Part shown: positions 19,638-29,892 of the stretch, piece after piece
Layout of the letters: every line of letters begins with the position of its first letter
How positions within the stretch are numbered: the first letter of the stretch is position 1
Source: Collimonas silvisoli
GTDB taxonomy: Bacteria; Pseudomonadota; Gammaproteobacteria; Burkholderiales; Burkholderiaceae_D
Direction of reading: 5' to 3'
DNA: 61,611 nt
Assembly: GCF_018305005.1 (NCBI RefSeq)
Contig: NZ_JAGQEG010000025.1
Location: forward strand, 1-61,611
Translations under genes and position numbers: made by a program
Notes under the pieces: generated by a model
What the model was told of the DNA's origin: nothing
The model's input: only the letters and a program-made list of their open reading frames with translations
Database searches by the model: none

Positions 19638-21659
19638 TTAAAACTTGGTGCGTACGCCAAGAATCAAGCTGCGCCCCGGTTGTGGCGCGACATCTTTCAA
19701 CACGGAAGTCGCCAGACGGATATCCTGATTCAACAGGTTCTTGGCCAGGGCAAACCAGGTGAGCTGCAGCGCGCCCAGCGTCTGGGTATAAGAGATATTG
19801 GCGTCGATCTTGGTGTATGCCGGCGTCACGCTGCTTTCAAAGGTCGCCAGCCGATCTTGTTGCTGGGCGCGCAGGATGGTGACGCCGCTACGCCATGCGC
19901 CGCGTACGTAGCCGAGATCGACGCCGTAGCGGCTGGCCGGTTGCAATGGCAGATTGCCCATCTGATCCAGCCTGCCGCGTGAGGTATCGGCAAAGCCGCG
20001 TATCGAAAAACCTTCGCCGCGCAGGTTGTAACTTATTTCCGCTTCGGCGCCGCGGATGGTGGCGTCGGCCTGCGACCAGAAGCGCTCGGTGAACTCGCCG
20101 TCCGGCTCTGGCGTCCCGCTTCCGTCAACGCGGCCGGCGTTGCGGCCAAATACATAATTGCTGACATGATTCTGGAACAGATTGGCTTTCCAGCGGATCA
20201 GCCCGCTGGTTTTTTGCAAGGTCAGCTCGATATTGCGGGAGGTTTCTTTTTTCAAGCTCGGATCGCCGATATCGAAAGTGGCGGTGGATTCGTGCGGGCC
20301 ATTGGAATACAGTTCTTCCGCCGCCGGCGCGCGCTGGGCAATCGAGACGGTGGGGCCGAAGCCATATCCTGGCACGAAGCTCCACAAGGCGCCAACCGAA
20401 TAGGATGCCAGGCTGAATTTGCGGTCAGCGAAACCGGACTCCGCATCGGGTCGCCGTTTGACAGATTCAATGCGCAAACCGGCACTGGTCAGCACCGGGC
20501 TAAAATTGCGTTCTTCCACCAGGAATGCGGCGATCGAAGTTGATTTGGTACGCGGTATGGTATCCGGCAGGCCGCTTTCGGCAGCCAGGGCCGAGAAGCG
20601 CGTGTCTTCGGTTTGCATGCCGAAAGTGCCGTGCCAGCCGGCCAATGGTTTGTGCGCGAGTTCCCATCGGCTCTCGGTCGACTGGTTGGAGAAAATCGTG
20701 TTCGGTGTGCCGTTTTCCTGTTTCTCGGTATGGGTGTAGTCGGTGCGGCCCAGCTTGCACGTCAGTTTTTCGAAACCGGCCAGCGGGTCGTCGATCTGGC
20801 CGGCGATATCGTAACGGGTTTGATGCAGATCGATGAAGGATTTTTCCGCAGTGGGGATGCCGTAGTGGTCATCCAGGGTTGCCACCGATGCGCCGACATA
20901 GCCCCAGGAAGCCAGATAGGAGGCGCCAGCGCCGACCCCGGTTTCGTGGGTAAAGGAGTTAGGCAGGCGGCCTGACGCTGAACTGGGATCGTTCTGGATG
21001 GCATGGCCGGGGATTTTGTAATTGCCGGTATCGCGCCAGTTGCCGTCCAGGTGCATGCCTATCGGTCCGGCGGAACCGTCCAGAGTCAGGGAAGTGCTTC
21101 TGCCGTTGTCGGCGCTGCTATAGCGGGCCTCGGCTTCGCCGCTGATCTCCTTTTGCAGCTGGGTCGGGATGCGGTCGTTGACGACGTTGACCAAGCCGCC
21201 GATTGCACCGGAACCGTACAACAGAGCGGCAGGGCCGCGCAGGATTTCGATTTGACGCGCGGTTGCAGCTTCGGTGGCTACCGCGTGATCGTTGGACAGA
21301 CTAGAGACATCGGCCACCGACATGCCGTTTTGCAGGATCTTGACGCGCGGACCTTCCATGCCGCGGATGATGGGGCGTGAAGCGCCGGCGCCGAAACCGG
21401 ATGCCGATACGCCCAGTTCTTGCGACAGGGTGTCGCCCAGCGAGGCGCCGGTCTTGTTGCGCAATTCCGCGCCGGACAATACTTTGGCCGGCGTCAGGAT
21501 CTGGGTATCGACATCGGCGTTCAGCGGGCTGGCGCTGACCACGATGGGCGGCAAGGTTTTAGTTGGTTCGATAGTGTCGGTTTGAGCCGATGCAGTAGAC
21601 GACAGAACGGATAGCGCGGATAGAACCGCACTGGATAACAGTGTGCGTTGGGCAGACAT
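19638..21659 (-). CDS. znuD: TonB-dependent outer-membrane receptor, ZnuD-like (probable zinc uptake)
   Basis: A 673-residue TonB-dependent receptor with a signal peptide ending A-S-A-Q. A TonB-box-like P-P-I-V-V-S-A-S is near residue 37, the plug domain carries R-P-I-I-R-G-M-E-G-P-R-V-K-I-L near 95-110 and I-E-I-L-R-G-P-A-A-L-L-Y-G-S-G, and a beta-barrel ends in phenylalanine. The strand Q-R-A-P-A-A-E-E-L-Y-S-N-G-P-H is typical of the ZnuD branch, zinc or haem receptors. The zinc assignment is supported by neighbours: a DUF2946 protein, DksA, a CobW GTPase and Zur. No Zur-like site was recognised directly upstream, so regulation is unproven. Confidence 0.8.
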   Translation of the reverse strand: MSAQRTLLSSAVLSALSVLSSTASAQTDTIEPTKTLPPIVVSASPLNADVDTQILTPAKVLSGAELRNKTGASLGDTLSQELGVSASGFGAGASRPIIRGMEGPRVKILQNGMSVADVSSLSNDHAVATEAATARQIEILRGPAALLYGSGAIGGLVNVVNDRIPTQLQKEISGEAEARYSSADNGRSTSLTLDGSAGPIGMHLDGNWRDTGNYKIPGHAIQNDPSSASGRLPNSFTHETGVGAGASYLASWGYVGASVATLDDHYGIPTAEKSFIDLHQTRYDIAGQIDDPLAGFEKLTCKLGRTDYTHTEKQENGTPNTIFSNQSTESRWELAHKPLAGWHGTFGMQTEDTRFSALAAESGLPDTIPRTKSTSIAAFLVEERNFSPVLTSAGLRIESVKRRPDAESGFADRKFSLASYSVGALWSFVPGYGFGPTVSIAQRAPAAEELYSNGPHESTATFDIGDPSLKKETSRNIELTLQKTSGLIRWKANLFQNHVSNYVFGRNAGRVDGSGTPEPDGEFTERFWSQADATIRGAEAEISYNLRGEGFSIRGFADTSRGRLDQMGNLPLQPASRYGVDLGYVRGAWRSGVTILRAQQQDRLATFESSVTPAYTKIDANISYTQTLGALQLTWFALAKNLLNQDIRLATSVLKDVAPQPGRSLILGVRTKF

Positions 21660-21773
21660 GATGATTCCTAGACAGGTGATGGCCGTTGCGGCTCATATCG
21701 ACACGGAGGCGATACGGCGACGGCAATAAATAGTTTGATGCTTCGGGATGAGCGAAGCGCGTGAAGCGTCCTG

Positions 21774-22160
21774 TCAGGAACGGGGCGGTGCGCGTGGTGA
21801 AAAATGGCAGGTAAACGGCGCATCCCAGGAGGCAAATGCCTGCCACAAGGCCAGCAGGTGCTTGCCGGGCACTGGCGGTAGCGTCACAGGCGCCGAGTAA
21901 ATCGCCGCCGCCAGGGTGGCGTCATCGAACGCTGCGCAAGAGTGGTGCGCTTTGCGGCCGCCTTCGATGACGCGTTCAATCACCGACGTCATGTGCGTCA
22001 GGCGGGTCGGCTGTTTGTTTTCCCAGGCCGCATGGACGATGCTATGCGTCAATCCCAGCCATTGGGCGAACAGGATCGTACATATCAACACAAGCGCCAG
22101 CACCGGCGCCGAGGCGGCGTGCTGGAGGCGTCTTGGACGGAATGCCTGGGCTGACATCAA
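21774..22160 (-). CDS. DUF2946-like small membrane/periplasmic protein
   Basis: A 128-residue protein with one N-terminal hydrophobic segment (A-P-V-L-A-L-V-L-I-C-T-I-L-F-A). H-S-I-V-H-A follows shortly, then a H-H-S-C-A-A-F-D-D segment near residue 71 and a C-terminal C-H-F-S-P-R-A-P-P. Proteins of this type often sit beside metal-responsive TonB receptors. The Cys/His content suggests metal binding, but no function is established. It is 114 bp upstream of the ZnuD-like gene on the same strand, likely co-transcribed. The second ATG (22157) is an equal start candidate. Confidence 0.7.
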   Translation of the reverse strand: MMSAQAFRPRRLQHAASAPVLALVLICTILFAQWLGLTHSIVHAAWENKQPTRLTHMTSVIERVIEGGRKAHHSCAAFDDATLAAAIYSAPVTLPPVPGKHLLALWQAFASWDAPFTCHFSPRAPPRS

Positions 22161-22281
22161 GGAGTCTGGATAACGTGAAAGCGACGGCAGAGAAAGCGCT
22201 AGCGATCAGGCCGTGGGGAAGCTACGCGCCGCTAAGCTGCTCCGGCTTGTGTTTTCCCCAAGATCCGACCGCTATCGAGAA

Positions 22282-23241
22282 TCAATCGCCGTAAAGCTTT
22301 TGTTTCAGTTCGCGACGTTGTTGTGCTTCCAGCGAGAGGGTTGCAGTCGGGCGTGCCAGCAAACGTGGAATGCCGATAGGCTCGCCGGTTTCTTCGCACC
22401 AGCCGTATTCGCCGGCGTCAATCGATGCGATCGATTGCTGTACTTTCTTCAGCAATTTGCGTTCACGATCGCGGGTACGCAACTCCAGGGCATGTTCTTC
22501 TTCGATGGTGGCGCGGTCTGCGGGATCCGGTACCAGGACGGTTTCACGCAAATGTTCAGTGGTTTCTCCGGCATTCTTGAGCAGGTCGATTTCTAACTGC
22601 TGCAAACGCGCTTTGAAGAAAGCCAGTTGTGCCTCATTCATGTAGTCCTTTTCGCTCATCTTGAGGATTTGCTCTTCGGTCAACAGAATGGATTCAGATG
22701 TTGGTTTGGTTGTTTTAGTAGCCACTTCGCTTGCTTTCGATACGACGTTTTTTTCAATTTTATCCGTTGATCCGGCACTTACGGGCTTGTTGCTGGTGCT
22801 GCTAGCGCCGGATCTGGCCGTTGGGGAATTCAGTTTCTTTGTAGCAGAACTACTGGTTTTCACCACTGTATTACGCGTTACCTTGTTGCGCGTTGCCTTC
22901 TCTGCCGCCGGAGCGGATCTGGTAACCGAGTTGGCCGTCGCCGTTTTCTTGGCTAAGGATTTTACAACAGGTTTGGGACTGGGTTTGGCAACTTTGGACA
23001 CAGCCTTGTTTGCGGTTGCAGTAGGGGGCTCGCTCTTCCGCGGCACCTTGGCGGAGAGTTTCGGTGTTTTTTCAGTTACTTTTGCGCTGCGGCTTGTACG
23101 GCTCGTGCTGCTGATTGCGCTTTTAGCCGGGCTCTTAATTTTTTCACTGGCGGGAGCGGTAGCCTGGCGGGCTTTGGGCGTCGATTTGCCTAGCGAGGCC
23201 GCCGCCTTCTTGGCAACGGTCTTTTTAACGGTCAGGTTCAT
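22282..23241 (-). CDS. dksA: DksA-family RNA polymerase regulator with a long basic N-terminal tail
   Basis: DksA binds the RNA polymerase secondary channel and acts with ppGpp. The ATG at 23241 has GGGAGAGG in front and gives 319 residues. Residues 185-319 are the DksA core, with the coiled-coil tip motif D-P-A-D at 239-242 intact. The zinc-finger equivalent keeps only the first cysteine (W-C-E-E-T-G-E, then L-S-L-E-A where C-x-x-C would be), so it should not need zinc. Residues 1-184 are Lys/Ala/Ser/Thr/Pro-rich with A-K-K-A-A type repeats like histone H1, several times longer than expected for a DksA N-terminus. It lies in the zinc locus downstream of cobW. Confidence 0.9.
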   Translation of the reverse strand: MNLTVKKTVAKKAAASLGKSTPKARQATAPASEKIKSPAKSAISSTSRTSRSAKVTEKTPKLSAKVPRKSEPPTATANKAVSKVAKPSPKPVVKSLAKKTATANSVTRSAPAAEKATRNKVTRNTVVKTSSSATKKLNSPTARSGASSTSNKPVSAGSTDKIEKNVVSKASEVATKTTKPTSESILLTEEQILKMSEKDYMNEAQLAFFKARLQQLEIDLLKNAGETTEHLRETVLVPDPADRATIEEEHALELRTRDRERKLLKKVQQSIASIDAGEYGWCEETGEPIGIPRLLARPTATLSLEAQQRRELKQKLYGD

Positions 23242-23324
23242 GGTCCTCTCCCTTAAATCAGCAGCCAAGCGACGATGCGATTGGCCCGCTATCCAGTGAT
23301 TTCCCAGTGCAAAACTGCCATAGT

Positions 23325-24377
23325 TTATACCAAACATTGCTCCAAACCGCGAATAAAAATGTCTTTCGGCAGATTCTTGCCAATGAAGACCATTTTGCTG
23401 CCGCGTGTCTCATTTGCATCCCATTTGCCACCGACATCGCTGCCCATGATCTGATGCACTCCTTGAAACACTACCTTGCGGTCGGCGCCATCCATCAACA
23501 ATACGCCTTTGTAGCGCAACATGCGCGGTCCGTAGACTTGTACCAGGCCGCCGAGAAACTCGTCCAGGCGTGCGGTATCGAACGGTCTTTCACTTTTGAA
23601 CACAAAAGCGGAAATTTCGTCGTTGTGATGCGCGTGATGATGGTCGTGATGAGCGTGTCCCTCATGTTGATGGGACGGGTGGTCGCAATCGTCGCCGCTA
23701 TGCTCATGGGCGTGTTCTTCCGTTGCCAAAAAGTCAGGGTCGATTTCCAGTTTGGCGTTCAGGTTGAAACCTCGGATATCCAGGATTTCGTCGATCGGCG
23801 TGTGCTGCGGGTCGAGAGTAATGACGGGTGCACGCGGATTGATGCGTTTCAGGCGACTCGTTAATGCGGCCACTTCTTCTGTACTGACCAGATCGGTTTT
23901 GGAAAGCAGTAATTTATCGGCAAAACCTACCTGGCGTTGCGCTTCTTCTTGTTGGTCGAGTTGCGCCATCGCATGTTTTGCATCGACCACGGTGACGATG
24001 GCGTCCAGCATGAAGTGCATCGCCACTTCGTCGTCGACAAAGAAGGTCTGCGCTACCGGCCCCGGATTGGCCATGCCGGTGGTTTCGATAATCACCCGGT
24101 CAAAGTTCAATTCGCCGGCAGCACGGCGGCGCGCCAGCGTGGTCAGGGCAACGATCAGGTCGCCGCGCACGGTGCAGCAGATGCAACCGTTGTTCATCTC
24201 GACGATTTGTTCGGTGCTGTCCTGCACCAGGATTTCATTGTCGATATTTTCCTGGCCGAATTCATTTTCAATCACGGCGATTTTATGGCCGTGCGGCTGT
24301 TGCAGGATGCGGTTCAGCAAAGTGGTTTTGCCGGCGCCGAGAAAGCCGGTCAGGATGGTGGTCGGAATAAGTGCCAT
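23325..24377 (-). CDS. CobW/COG0523-family GTPase, probable zinc metallochaperone
   Basis: A 350-residue G3E GTPase. Walker A G-F-L-G-A-G-K-T is at 11-18, the metal-binding C-I-C-C is at 65-68, and a guanine-specificity S-K-T-D is near 159. A His-rich loop at 222-251 contains about a dozen histidines and precedes the CobW C-terminal domain. COG0523 proteins of this kind deliver zinc to client enzymes during zinc limitation. The neighbours Zur and ZnuD and the absence of cobalamin genes support zinc rather than cobalt. A candidate Zur operator lies at 24443-24457 upstream. Confidence 0.88.
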   Translation of the reverse strand: MALIPTTILTGFLGAGKTTLLNRILQQPHGHKIAVIENEFGQENIDNEILVQDSTEQIVEMNNGCICCTVRGDLIVALTTLARRRAAGELNFDRVIIETTGMANPGPVAQTFFVDDEVAMHFMLDAIVTVVDAKHAMAQLDQQEEAQRQVGFADKLLLSKTDLVSTEEVAALTSRLKRINPRAPVITLDPQHTPIDEILDIRGFNLNAKLEIDPDFLATEEHAHEHSGDDCDHPSHQHEGHAHHDHHHAHHNDEISAFVFKSERPFDTARLDEFLGGLVQVYGPRMLRYKGVLLMDGADRKVVFQGVHQIMGSDVGGKWDANETRGSKMVFIGKNLPKDIFIRGLEQCLV

Positions 24378-24442
24378 GGTCAGATTCGGAAAAGTAAAAA
24401 ACGATAAAAGGCTGAAGAGGATTCAGATGAGTCACGCGCTGC

Positions 24443-24457
24443 TGCAGCGCTGTTGCA
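24443..24457. promoter_or_regulatory. Candidate Zur operator upstream of cobW
   Basis: TGCAGCGCTGTTGCA is a TGCA-N7-TGCA element 66 bp upstream of the cobW start. It matches the element upstream of zur (25124-25138) at 11 of 15 positions. Assignment to Zur is inference from context. Confidence 0.45.
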
Positions 24458-24489
24458 ACAATGCCGTTACACAACGCTGTTAAAACAAA

Positions 24490-25083
24490 TCAATGGGCGC
24501 AATCGGCGCACCAGCCCTTGATGGTGAGTTCGATTTCATGACCTTGAAAACCCTTGCCCAGCGTGTCTTGCAAAGCTTGTTGCAACTGCTTGCGCAGCTT
24601 GGCCGGGGTGCTGCCGGCATGATTGTCGCCGAGCGCCAGTATGCTATCCAGGAAACCGGCGTCGCCGCTGCCGTCCAGGCAAAATACCTTGCCGCAGCGA
24701 GTGCATTTGAAATGTCCGTGCTGATGCTGGGTCTGGTGCGCTGCGCCGCCGTGATGGCTTGAGTCGCTGTGTTCGGTGCCGGCGCTATAGCGGAATACGC
24801 GGTCGTCGCCGGCAATCTTGTGCGCCAGGCCGGCGTCGGTCAGGCAATCGAGGGCGCGATACAAGGTCACCCGGTCCATCTCGACAAACTGGTCCTGCAT
24901 GTCTTGATGCGAAAAAGCGCAACGTGCTTCCAGCAAGGCGGCCAAGACTTTGATGCGAGCAGGGGTGATGCGCAACGCGACTTCGCGCAACTGGGTCTCG
25001 GCCAATGCTGCCGCATGCGGATGGGAGTTGTCCTTGGCGCCTGCGGTGGTTGCGACAGATTTGGATTTTGGGCCTGGATTCAT
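24490..25083 (-). CDS. zur: Fur-family regulator, probable zinc uptake regulator Zur
   Basis: A 197-residue Fur-family repressor with an N-terminal winged helix. The recognition-helix stretch R-V-T-L-Y-R-A-L-D is at 71-79. The dimerisation domain carries a His-rich segment (residues 105-124), C-T-R-C at 127-130 and a second pair C-A-D-C at 192-195 that would form the structural zinc site. The N-terminal extension of ~30 residues is longer than usual. Location next to cobW and ZnuD favours Zur over Fur. A palindrome 40 bp upstream suggests autoregulation. Confidence 0.85.
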   Translation of the reverse strand: MNPGPKSKSVATTAGAKDNSHPHAAALAETQLREVALRITPARIKVLAALLEARCAFSHQDMQDQFVEMDRVTLYRALDCLTDAGLAHKIAGDDRVFRYSAGTEHSDSSHHGGAAHQTQHQHGHFKCTRCGKVFCLDGSGDAGFLDSILALGDNHAGSTPAKLRKQLQQALQDTLGKGFQGHEIELTIKGWCADCAH

Positions 25084-25123
25084 AATGCAATGTGGGTAGG
25101 TGAGACTTCAATTATGCCTGAAA

Positions 25124-25138
25124 TGCAATTCAGTTGCA
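25124..25138. promoter_or_regulatory. Candidate Zur operator upstream of zur
   Basis: TGCAA-TTCAG-TTGCA, a 5-bp perfect inverted repeat extended to 6 bp (ATGCAA/TTGCAT at 25123-25139). It lies 40 bp upstream of the zur start. The same pattern occurs upstream of cobW. Confidence 0.5.
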
Positions 25139-25192
25139 TATTTGATGTGGTGTAGCGCAAACCAGGCAGTTAAAACGGTTGCTGTCTGCTGA

Positions 25193-26167
25193 TCATTTAT
25201 CGGAGATTTTTTTCGCACGCGGGTGGGCCGCGTCATAGACCTGCGCCAGGCGCTGGAAATCAAGCGAGGTGTAGACCTGGGTGGCGGCAATCGATGCATG
25301 TCCCAGCAGCTCTTGTACTGCGCGCAAATCGCCGGAACCCTGCAGCATGTGCGAGGCGAATGAATGGCGTAGCACATGGGGGTGGACATTGCTGGCGATG
25401 CCGAGTGACTGCGCATGATGTTTCAAGCGCAGTTGGATCACGCGCGGCGACACGCGGCTGCCGCGTTCGGTCAGGAATAAAGCCGCAGCATGCTGCGCCT
25501 GATCGCTTTTGAGCAGCGCTTCGCGTTGCGGCAGCCACGCCGCGACGGCTTGTATTGCCGGCTTGCCTACCGGCACGCTGCGTTTCTTGCCGCCTTTGCC
25601 GGTGACCGTCACTTCCGCCGCATCCAGATCGATCCAGCCGGCCGATTCATAGTCAGCTTGCCGGCTGTAACGCAGGTCCAGCCCCGCCAGTTCCGAGACC
25701 CGCAGCCCGCTGGAATACAGCAATTCAAACATCGCTTGATTGCATAGCGCCATGCTGGATCCTGCATCGGCCAGCGGGTTGGGGCTGGCAACCAGGTGTA
25801 TCGCATCATCTGCAGCCATTGCTTTCGGCAGCGGTTTGGCGCGTTTTGGCGCTTTGACGCCCTCGACAGGATTGCTGGCAAGTGTGGTCTGTTCCGCCAG
25901 CCATTCGAAAAACCCGCGCCAGGCCGATAACTTGCGCGCAATTGAACTTGGATTCAGGCCGCGGGAGTGCAATTGCGCGGCAAATTTACGGATATGGAAG
26001 TGGGTGACGGCGGCGAATTTCCAATGCTCGCCCAGCGCTTGTGTCAGGCTCGCCAGTTCTTTCAGATCACGGGCGTAGTTGCTGATGGTATGCGCTGACA
26101 ACTGGCGTTGGCCCGCCAGACTATCCAGATAGCCGCTCAGGTAGGTCTGGTTGGTATCGCCGCTCAC
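25193..26167 (-). CDS. xerC: Tyrosine recombinase XerC
   Basis: Site-specific recombinase that resolves chromosome dimers at dif together with XerD. The 324-residue product has an N-terminal SAM-like core-binding domain. The catalytic set is complete: Arg156 (S-S-G-L-R-V-S-E), a lysine in G-K-G-G-K-K-R near 191-196, H-V-L-R at 264-267, His290 (L-L-G-H-A) and nucleophile Tyr299. The DUF484 gene precedes it by 33 bp on the same strand, a pairing commonly seen with xerC. Confidence 0.94.
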   Translation of the reverse strand: MSGDTNQTYLSGYLDSLAGQRQLSAHTISNYARDLKELASLTQALGEHWKFAAVTHFHIRKFAAQLHSRGLNPSSIARKLSAWRGFFEWLAEQTTLASNPVEGVKAPKRAKPLPKAMAADDAIHLVASPNPLADAGSSMALCNQAMFELLYSSGLRVSELAGLDLRYSRQADYESAGWIDLDAAEVTVTGKGGKKRSVPVGKPAIQAVAAWLPQREALLKSDQAQHAAALFLTERGSRVSPRVIQLRLKHHAQSLGIASNVHPHVLRHSFASHMLQGSGDLRAVQELLGHASIAATQVYTSLDFQRLAQVYDAAHPRAKKISDK

Positions 26168-27091: not shown

Positions 27092-28288
27092 TTAGAACTT
27101 GTGACGGATACCAACAGCAACTGCTGTTTGGTTGTTGTCGGAACCGGTGCTGTCGCCGAACACGCCTGGATTGACAGCATCTTTAGCGCGCAGGTTCGAA
27201 ACGAATGCATACAGGTCAGTACGCTTCGACAGGAAGTAGTCAGTACCCAGGTTGATTTGGGTCAGCTTGCCCTTAGCGGAGCCTGCATCAGCAAATGTCA
27301 ACTTGTTGTATTGAACGCTAGCCAACAGGTGCAGAGGTGCTGTAACAGCGTAGTTTACGCCCAGTTCGAAGATGTCAGCCTTGGTGTTGTTGAAGCTGCC
27401 AACAGTGAAGCTGCCTGGTTGGATAACGCCTGTAGTAGCCGCTGTCGAGCTGAATGCCAGAGGTTGCTTAGTACGCGACCAGTTGCCGTACAGACGTGCA
27501 GGACCGACTTGGTAGCTAGCACCGAGGCTGAATGTCTTCAGAGCTGTGTCACCAGCGCTGCCGTGACCAGCGAACGCAGTGCTGCCGAGGATCGAAGTGT
27601 CGCTGGCAGTAGTACCCAGTTTCGATTGGTAGTAAGCAGCGAACAGACCCAGTGGGCCGTTAGCGTATTGACCGCCCAGACCGAACGATTGGCCAGCAGA
27701 AGTCTTACCAGCAGTTTCGCCGAAGCCATAGATCAGGCTACCAGTGAAGCCGGACAGATCTGGTGTGTTATAACGGATCGAATTGTTGGTACGTGTACCT
27801 TCCAAACGGTCCAGATTGTGACCGACGGTACCAGTTACGCCACCGAAATCTTGAACCGAAGTCCATTGGCTGACGTCGTCCAGGATGTCAGTTTGACGAC
27901 CCAGCAAAACGGAACCGAAGTTGCCGCCCAGACCGACTACCGATTTACGACGGAACAGGTTAACAGTGCCGGAAGGAGCTTTGTCTTGGCCGTTCAACGC
28001 GCCAGTGTCGTTGTTGAAGCCAGCTTCCAATTGGAACAGAGCCTTCAGACCGCCGCCCAGATCTTCAACGCCTTTGAAACCCAGACGCGAACCTTGGATA
28101 ACGCCGGAGTTGACGCTGAATTTGCTGCCGTTGTTCGAGGACAGGCCATTTGCGCCAGTTGCAGTCGAAACCTTGCTTGTGTAAACGATGCCAGTATCAA
28201 CGATACCGTAGATGGTGACGGAACTTTGAGCTTGTGCTGCACCTGCGATTGCGCCGAGTACGGCCAGTGCGATTAGTGATTTCTTCAT
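27092..28288 (-). CDS. Trimeric outer-membrane porin, Burkholderiales type (copy 1)
   Basis: A 398-residue general-diffusion porin. The signal peptide M-K-K-S-L-I-A-L-A-V-L-G ends A-A-Q-A-Q and the mature protein starts S-S-V-T-I-Y-G-I-V-D, the family signature. G-S-R-L-G-F-K-G-V-E-D-L-G-G-G-L-K-A is near 60, and the protein ends with R-H-K-F, a terminal phenylalanine for BAM recognition. It is a close paralogue of the porin at 28771-29892 with the same leader. It has its own strong terminator. A 417-codon open frame on the opposite strand is a codon-bias artefact. Confidence 0.95.
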   Translation of the reverse strand: MKKSLIALAVLGAIAGAAQAQSSVTIYGIVDTGIVYTSKVSTATGANGLSSNNGSKFSVNSGVIQGSRLGFKGVEDLGGGLKALFQLEAGFNNDTGALNGQDKAPSGTVNLFRRKSVVGLGGNFGSVLLGRQTDILDDVSQWTSVQDFGGVTGTVGHNLDRLEGTRTNNSIRYNTPDLSGFTGSLIYGFGETAGKTSAGQSFGLGGQYANGPLGLFAAYYQSKLGTTASDTSILGSTAFAGHGSAGDTALKTFSLGASYQVGPARLYGNWSRTKQPLAFSSTAATTGVIQPGSFTVGSFNNTKADIFELGVNYAVTAPLHLLASVQYNKLTFADAGSAKGKLTQINLGTDYFLSKRTDLYAFVSNLRAKDAVNPGVFGDSTGSDNNQTAVAVGIRHKF

Positions 28289-28770: not shown

Positions 28771-29892
28771 TTAGAACTTGTGACGGATACCGACTGCAAG
28801 CTTGGTCTGGCTGCTGTTACCGTTGCTACCCTGTACTGCTGGGGCTGTAATGTCGCCAACCAGCGCGCCATTGCGACCCTTTGCGAAGGAAGCCAGAGTA
28901 TACAGATCGGTACGCTTGGACAGGTAATAGTCCAGGCCCAGGTTGAACTGGGTCACCGATGGCTTGGAGCCTTGGAGGCCGTCTATCGATGTCTTTGTAT
29001 GTTGAACCGCCGTCAGCAAGTGGATCGGTGCTGTTACAGCATAGTCTGCGCCGAGTTCGAAAATATTTTGCTTGAGCACGTCAGGCACGTTGACGCGCGA
29101 CCAGTTGCCGTACAGGCGTGCAGGGCCGGCTTGATAGCTGGCGCCCAGGCTGAATGTCTTGTTAACTGTTTTTCCATCAAGGTTGGCGGCCGCCAGCTGG
29201 GCTGGAGTCAGGCCAGTCAAGGCGGTGATGCCGGAAATCAGAGTGTCGCTAGGGCTGGAGCCAAACTTCGATTGATAGTAGCCAGCATACAGTCCCAATG
29301 GGCCGTTAGCGTAAGTGCCGCCAGCACCGAAGGATTGACCGGCAGTCGTTTTGCCTGCTTGTTCGCCGAAGCCGTAAATCACGCTACCAGTGAAGCCGCT
29401 CAGATTCATGCTGTCATAGCGAATCGAATTTTGAGTGCGAATGCCTTCGAGGCGATCAAAAGCGTGCGGGCTGCCTACGAAATTACCGAAATCTTTAACG
29501 GACGTGAATGCATGGCCAGCGTCGTCCAGGATGTCGGATTGACGACCTAGCGTAACAGTACCGAAGTTGCCAGCCAGGCCAACCACCGATTTGCGAGCAA
29601 AGCCGCCGCCTTCTGAGGCGCCAGTATCGTTTTTGAAGCCTGCTTCCAGTTGGAACAAAGCTTTCAGGCCGCCGCCCAGATCTTCCGTGCCCTTGAAGCC
29701 GAGACGGGATGTATCGATATTGCCGGAGTCGATGCCGAACTTGCTGCCGTTGCTGGCAGTGCCGGTTCTGACGTTGTGATTCGAGAAAGTAATGCCGGTA
29801 TCAACGGTACCGTAGATGGTGACGGAGCTTTGAGCTTGTGCTGCGCTGGCGATTGTGCCGAGTGCGGCCAATGCGATGAGTGATTTTTTCAT
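28771..29892 (-). CDS. Trimeric outer-membrane porin, Burkholderiales type (copy 2)
   Basis: A 373-residue porin with the same signal peptide (M-K-K-S-L-I-A-L-A), mature start S-S-V-T-I-Y-G-T-V-D, L-G-F-K-G-T-E-D-L-G-G-G and C-terminal R-H-K-F as copy 1. It differs by shorter and divergent surface loops (for instance the stretch after D-T-L-I-S-G near residue 210). The pair looks like a tandem duplication. Copy 2 is divergent from the Sel1-repeat gene. Confidence 0.95.
   Translation of the reverse strand: MKKSLIALAALGTIASAAQAQSSVTIYGTVDTGITFSNHNVRTGTASNGSKFGIDSGNIDTSRLGFKGTEDLGGGLKALFQLEAGFKNDTGASEGGGFARKSVVGLAGNFGTVTLGRQSDILDDAGHAFTSVKDFGNFVGSPHAFDRLEGIRTQNSIRYDSMNLSGFTGSVIYGFGEQAGKTTAGQSFGAGGTYANGPLGLYAGYYQSKFGSSPSDTLISGITALTGLTPAQLAAANLDGKTVNKTFSLGASYQAGPARLYGNWSRVNVPDVLKQNIFELGADYAVTAPIHLLTAVQHTKTSIDGLQGSKPSVTQFNLGLDYYLSKRTDLYTLASFAKGRNGALVGDITAPAVQGSNGNSSQTKLAVGIRHKF

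Follow-up and report, generated by a model that had tools for sequence, protein, structure and literature searches.

The dksA locus and its single-cysteine core

The window, by which we mean the whole analysed stretch of 61,611 nucleotides from Collimonas silvisoli, contains a locus in which xerC, a Fur-family gene, cobW, dksA, a small ORF and a ZnuD-like receptor gene follow one another. From the second gene onward these are, all on the minus strand, a Fur-family regulator that is zur by context (24490..25083), a CobW/COG0523-type GTPase as the upstream neighbour of dksA (23325..24377), dksA itself (22282..23241), the small ORF (21774..22160) and a TonB-dependent, ZnuD-like receptor (19638..21659). 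The cobW, zur and receptor genes are present as the initial annotation had described them, with names given by homology only: the Fur-family protein reaches 24.7 bits against the 167 required by the NCBIfam Zur model, and the ZnuD-like protein 386.9 bits against the 950 required by NCBIfam ZnuD. The small ORF gave no match in Pfam or NCBIfam; the relatives in which it was detected mostly carry it immediately 5' of the gene for the ZnuD-like receptor. Elsewhere in the window, two similar adjoining minus-strand ORFs (27092-28288 and 28771-29892) were named by eye as tandem general porins.

The long dksA reading frame encodes 319 residues, an H1-like tail followed by a DksA core, as seen from the ORF list and from Pfam and NCBIfam. 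It starts with the ATG at 23241, and the ribosome-binding site GGGAGAGG (23245..23252, minus strand) is found 3 bases 5' of this codon. This upstream ATG with its Shine-Dalgarno sequence is present in 15/15 genomes of the genus, a count that, like all counts for the genus given here, includes the window's own genome. In the 319-residue product, Pfam assigns DksA_N to residues 205-274 and zf-dskA_traR to residues 277-311, while the NCBIfam DksA model TIGR02420 matches residues 201-308 with 136.3 bits, above its curated cut-off of 115.5. The coiled-coil tip D-P-A-D occupies residues 239-242 (22516..22527, minus strand), and D239, P240 and D242 are invariant across 36 aligned sequences. These data confirm the reading frame and the DksA-like core with its D-P-A-D tip that had been proposed initially.

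The former zinc finger contains C282 (22396..22398, minus strand) as its sole cysteine, just as had been noticed before, while the classical subtype has four; the protein thus lacks the classical four-Cys zinc site. The finger reads YGWCEETGEPIG, which is near the zinc-free finger of DksA2, YGWCQETGEPIG. In the AlphaFold model (mean pLDDT 63, high in the core only, with the tail sequence in just two alignment rows), residues 1-188 are without secondary structure. They are followed by a predicted DksA architecture: two long helices that the D-P-A-D tip connects, a small globular domain and a helix at the C-terminus. The nearest solved fold is DksA2 of Pseudomonas aeruginosa, 4IJJ, with a target-normalised TM of 0.91. 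The one-Cys finger together with this predicted fold supports the earlier proposal that the core is of the zinc-free DksA type, in which cysteines would have been lost while the fold stayed the same.

Exactly one cysteine after the tip was found in 154/154 relatives, tailed or tail-less; this set covers the family and neighbouring families and contains some duplicates (L012 is the window itself, and L032 equals L018). A PF01258 profile search of the whole genome (E <= 0.001) gave one match, this dksA, and no second DksA copy beside a four-Cys DksA, the arrangement that defines a DksA2 paralog. The single cysteine in all relatives and the sole PF01258 gene both argue for the organism's housekeeping DksA and not for a zinc-starvation spare. 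As a single-Cys protein it is expected to need no zinc.

The H1-like tail and the question of zinc

The tail is encoded by codons 1-172 (22726..23241, minus strand), so that it measures 172 residues to an internal GTG discussed below, or about 188 to the first predicted helix. Residues 1-172 consist of 17% Lys, 17% Ser, 16% Ala and 12% Thr, with 38 K/R facing 7 D/E and a pI of 11.3; the residues after the tail, from 173 on, have a pI of 5.25. Low pLDDT in the AlphaFold model completes the picture of a long, disordered, Lys/Ala-rich basic tail. The Lys/Ala/Thr-rich, H1-like N-terminus described initially is thus borne out by composition, pI and predicted disorder. KPAA-type repeats of the AlgP kind are absent from the tail sequence. 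Because the tail is basic and predicted to be disordered, nucleic-acid binding is plausible, and the tailed form, to judge from its composition, is probably nucleic-acid-binding.

The tail is under weak purifying selection at the protein level. Among the 13 genomes of the genus that hold it in frame, its pN/pS is 0.486 (bootstrap 0.40-0.60, taken over 40 of 78 sequence pairs) versus 0.021 for the core. The two other reading frames of the tail gave 1.15 and 0.85, 60 neutral simulations gave 0.68-1.05 (mean 0.85), and removal of the two frozen elements described below left a value of 0.514. In a second tailed group the tail value is 0.643, computed from 5 of 8 sequences, the other three being without the start motif searched for; the neutral simulations cover the genus set only. 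Tail and core are held in one frame in 13/15 genomes of the genus despite many indels. The low in-frame pN/pS together with the conserved ATG and Shine-Dalgarno sequence indicates that the tail evolves as a weakly constrained protein, like low-complexity tails do.

How widespread is such a tail? The DksA core is present in 243/245 genomes drawn from the family and in 15/15 of the genus, and the in-frame tail in 13/15 of the latter. Its length, which the initial annotation had taken as unusual, is therefore the normal one within the genus. An H1-like tail of at least 40 residues was found in 15/43 other genera of the family and none such in 28/43. This is the looser rule, with two tails of just 40 and 44 residues; a stricter rule gives 13/41 genera (2 of the 43 loci were unparsed), and one locus (G023) is tailed under the stricter rule only. 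Among the 30 best loci of the class, which are the best-scoring among 369 genomes and hence a non-random draw, 14 carry H1-like tails of 42-118 residues on a DksA with all four cysteines. The tail is thus independent of the loss of the zinc finger, and from this distribution H1-like tails on DksA likely have several separate origins.

Several loci have the tail frame interrupted. In G197 (locus L004) the tail ORF runs from 944 to 1459, encodes 171 residues in a frame that differs from that of the core, and ends 46 nt inside the short dksA. Such an ORF could encode a stand-alone H1-like protein. The tail frame is also interrupted in G102, a genome of 1.7 Mb from the same genus, whose core is 96% identical to that of the window. 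This genome (loci L142 and L233; 99% completeness) keeps the order zur-cobW-dksA-orf128-znuD and looks like a host-restricted reduced genome. Some Herbaspirillum-type loci have apparent tail remnants in broken frames in front of a full core. The lack of an in-frame tail in G197, in G102 and in 28/43 other genera leads us to regard the tail, by its distribution, as a recurrent and dispensable feature. One may ask whether it was originally a separate H1-like protein whose frame ran into dksA by chance, so that the fusion is incidental. The out-of-frame tail ORF of G197, overlapping the short dksA by 46 nt, is what such an origin would predict, but the shift, which falls within a run of A, could reflect either a recent event or an error in sequencing, and tail and core share one frame in 13/15 genomes of the genus and in several other genera. 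We therefore consider an incidental fusion improbable.

The neighbourhood had suggested a special adaptation to scarce zinc, namely a zinc-free, DNA-tethered DksA that is induced by Zur when zinc runs short. The DksA2-type finger and the Fur-family, cobW and ZnuD-like neighbours speak for this idea. The named loci are the 80 best out of 563, and contig ends cut some of them, so that an absent neighbour is not always a true absence; in this set cobW lies just 5' of dksA in 68/80, a Fur-family gene is near it in 16/80 and a ZnuD-like gene in 24/80. The tail is indeed commoner beside zur in these loci (10/18 tailed versus 6/62 tail-less, Fisher p 0.0001), which are not independent of each other. 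With one locus per genus the association is 6/15 versus 5/28 (Fisher p 0.15, kinship ignored), and 9/15 tailed genera have no zur neighbour. Three loci (L107, L110, L091), one from Pandoraea and two from Cupriavidus, combine a tail without the start block described below with the order zur-cobW-dksA-znuD; the Burkholderia and Caballeronia loci examined are unlike them in this combination. These three hint at a tail-zur association and leave the zinc idea weakened rather than dead.

The search for operators gave little in its favour. The Zur-type motif TGTTATAWTATAACA has no match with up to 3 mismatches within the window. When five Zur-type patterns were scanned on the plus strand (<=3 mismatches), three were without a match and one matched outside the locus only. 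The fifth has a single match with 3 mismatches of 15; it lies at 24478, in the interval that separates cobW from the Fur-family gene, and chance alone would be expected to yield about one such match in the window. A perfect inverted repeat, ATGCAA-N5-TTGCAT, is found at 25123-25139, about 40 nt before the Fur-family gene; we dropped it as a zinc operator, since the genome has just one further perfect copy, which is not at a recognised zinc gene. Taken together with the universal single cysteine, the sole PF01258 gene and the tails on four-Cys DksA, this leaves a coupling of the tail to zinc unsupported. The same holds for the scarce-zinc adaptation, and we rate a zinc-limitation specialist as clearly unlikely.

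A frozen block and probable start region inside the gene

Codon 173 of the long frame is a GTG (22723..22725, minus strand). It is GTG in 13/13 in-frame genomes of the genus and in 5/5 of the second tailed group, and we infer that it is the start of a short, ordinary DksA of 147 residues (22282..22725). Two stretches of the tail-coding DNA vary least, silent sites included, and the stronger of them is the frozen DNA around this GTG. Nowhere else in the gene is a nucleotide-invariant run as long as in this block B (ACGGATAAAATTG...GAAGTGGC..., 22702..22767, minus strand): in the 13 genomes the run spans 17 codons at 22702-22752, a length that was reached by 0/20,000 codon-column permutations (maximum 14). 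Synonymous change is zero at codon columns 180-197 of the 13-genome alignment, compared with means of 0.27 in the tail and 0.29 in the core, and the second tailed group has the same trough in silent divergence. The initial annotation did not contain this internal start, which is a new point.

The second-longest invariant run, with 7 codons, is element A (CCCAAACCTGTTGTAAAATCC, 22957..22977, minus strand). It includes a -10-box-like TAAAAT and may be part of an internal promoter, although a consensus scan of 21500-25300 found no sigma-70-like promoter and gives this role no support. Its 15-base part CCTGTTGTAAAATCC is kept with at most one mismatch in four tail-less Glaciimonas-type loci and is absent from most other loci, and a TAnAAT hexamer also occurs in Herbaspirillum-type and Glaciimonas-type loci without a constant -35. 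An Rfam search of 22000-25300 returned no RNA family.

Block B extends beyond the tailed genes. Applying a threshold of at least 16 of 21 bases (in shuffles the 99th percentile was 13 and the maximum 17), we found it in 47/47 tailed loci, chosen by hand, and in 67/103 other loci. These 103 "tail-less" rows take in G197, G102 and loci outside the family, and they hold at least 8 loci whose tails are unrelated in sequence (L088, L091, L096, L101, L107, L110, L181, L183); L028, L161 and L185 were skipped and L032 was dropped as a duplicate of L018. The 36/103 that miss the threshold include some family members whose block contains indels. Among these 67 other loci with block B, 30 have an in-frame stop codon at most 60 nt upstream of it, so that initiation in those loci must come after the stop, and in 29 a GTN is directly followed by ATG. 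In tail-less loci of this kind, block B is where dksA starts, with an N-terminus of about E. coli length. Where the tail frame is broken, as in G197, G102 and the Herbaspirillum-type loci, the core, if it is expressed, would likewise have to be initiated in block B or close to it. Read most simply, these findings mean that the tailed genes retain a functional start region for the ordinary short DksA.

Two opposite explanations have to be weighed here. The first is that the long form alone is made, the GTG is unused, and the frozen block persists because it is a regulatory site in DNA or RNA, or because it encodes an important tail segment. Indeed, the upstream ATG has a far better ribosome-binding site than the GTG, which is preceded by GAAAGCAAGCGAA only and is a modest start, and the promoter scan detected no promoter-like site. 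But selection on the peptide alone would not yield zero synonymous change, and in tail-less genera the block sits directly at the dksA start, where in the stop-bearing loci the GTG or the adjoining ATG gives the N-terminus of about E. coli length. We regard exclusive use of the ATG as rather doubtful. The second explanation is that only the short form is made, with the tail ORF as a leader that escapes translation and stays open because of its composition. This would fit the frozen internal start, the absence of the tail in 28/43 other genera and its being out of frame in 2/15 genomes of the genus; it leaves the frame-specific protein-level constraint on the tail and the conserved ATG and Shine-Dalgarno sequence without a cause and is very improbable. 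The initial annotation had itself raised the case of a true start at the core with an untranslated tail. Half of this holds: a conserved start region does lie close to the core, yet the tail shows protein-like evolution as well.

The gene thus combines a DksA core, a frozen block with a GTG, and an ATG with a strong ribosome-binding site that opens a protein-like tail. The explanation that we favour, with a probability of roughly 0.55, is a housekeeping single-Cys DksA with nested in-frame starts, which would furnish a short ordinary and a tailed form. The short form of 147 residues would be made from the GTG, perhaps partly via an internal promoter at element A, and would have the usual action of DksA on RNA polymerase. 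The long form would be made from the ATG by read-through from cobW, and its tail, basic and disordered, would bind nucleic acid or another polyanion, for example polyphosphate. By analogy to AlgP, the long form may anchor DksA to the nucleoid or to polyphosphate. Binding by the tail would concentrate DksA locally at the nucleoid, and through the upstream operon the cell could change the proportion of DksA that is tethered rather than free; zinc need not take part. Against nested starts stand the modest quality of the GTG as a start, the lack of a consistent -35 at element A, the 36/103 "tail-less" loci below the block threshold and the pN/pS of 0.64 in the second group, and the frozen block could serve another purpose.

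DksA is among the central partners of ppGpp and is regarded as a single small, diffusible protein. If a second, tailed DksA is made in many bacteria, the annotation of dksA with respect to start site and size is often incomplete, and the stringent response would, if this is true, have a spatial layer. One may speculate further that DksA exists as a free proteoform and as a second one that an H1-like tail tethers to the nucleoid or polyphosphate, that such tails have arisen several times in beta- and gammaproteobacteria, and that the location of DksA is, within the stringent response, both regulated and evolvable; we offer this wider idea as a tentative possibility only. The result argues against the tempting story of the tail as a zinc-starvation device.

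Comparison with known systems

E. coli DksA, whose action on RNA polymerase is established, has the same coiled coil with a D-P-x-D tip, the same globular domain and the same C-terminal helix (1TJL; with RNA polymerase 5VSW and 7KHI). It was matched with a phmmer value of 8e-28 and target-normalised TM values of 0.77-0.81 (0.77 for 1TJL), but it has 151 residues, no basic tail and a four-Cys zinc site. The DksA2 of Pseudomonas aeruginosa (4IJJ) shares the zinc-free GWC-x-ETGEPIG-type finger and gives the best fold match. It differs in keeping two cysteines, whereas the protein of the window has one cysteine, a tail and the position of sole PF01258 gene, and the tip reads DPADRA, of the housekeeping type, instead of DEADLA. 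Pseudomonas DksA2 is reported to be a second copy, Zur-repressed, beside a four-Cys DksA1; it keeps a second cysteine, and the fold does not need the four-Cys site (PMC9213440). DksA paralogs behind putative Zur sites and without the four-Cys motif were reported in 2009 (PMC2770081).

The closest counterparts of the tail on a DksA are the 14 tailed proteins of the gammaproteobacterial class (L112-L114, L121, L124-L127, L132, L133, L137-L140). They likewise bear an H1-like N-terminal tail, of 42-118 residues, and differ in having four cysteines in all 14 cases and tails that are mostly KKA/KKT-like. Among the open-licence papers listed by our literature search, none dealt with a tailed DksA or with two DksA proteoforms. 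Outside the DksA family, AlgP (AlgR3) and PhaF of Pseudomonas carry a long, disordered, H1-like tail rich in Lys, Ala and Pro, and that of PhaF is thought to bind DNA. For AlgP, it is reported that a tail fragment and KPAA peptides bind DNA and that the H1-like tail is required for the spacing of polyphosphate granules (PMC9239181). The tail of the window's protein is, in contrast, N-terminal, richer in Ser and Thr, free of KPAA repeats and attached to an RNA polymerase factor. Bacterial N-terminal proteoforms that arise from two in-frame starts of one gene are exemplified by IF2. Its nested starts follow the same scheme as we propose for dksA, and there they are known to furnish two proteins.
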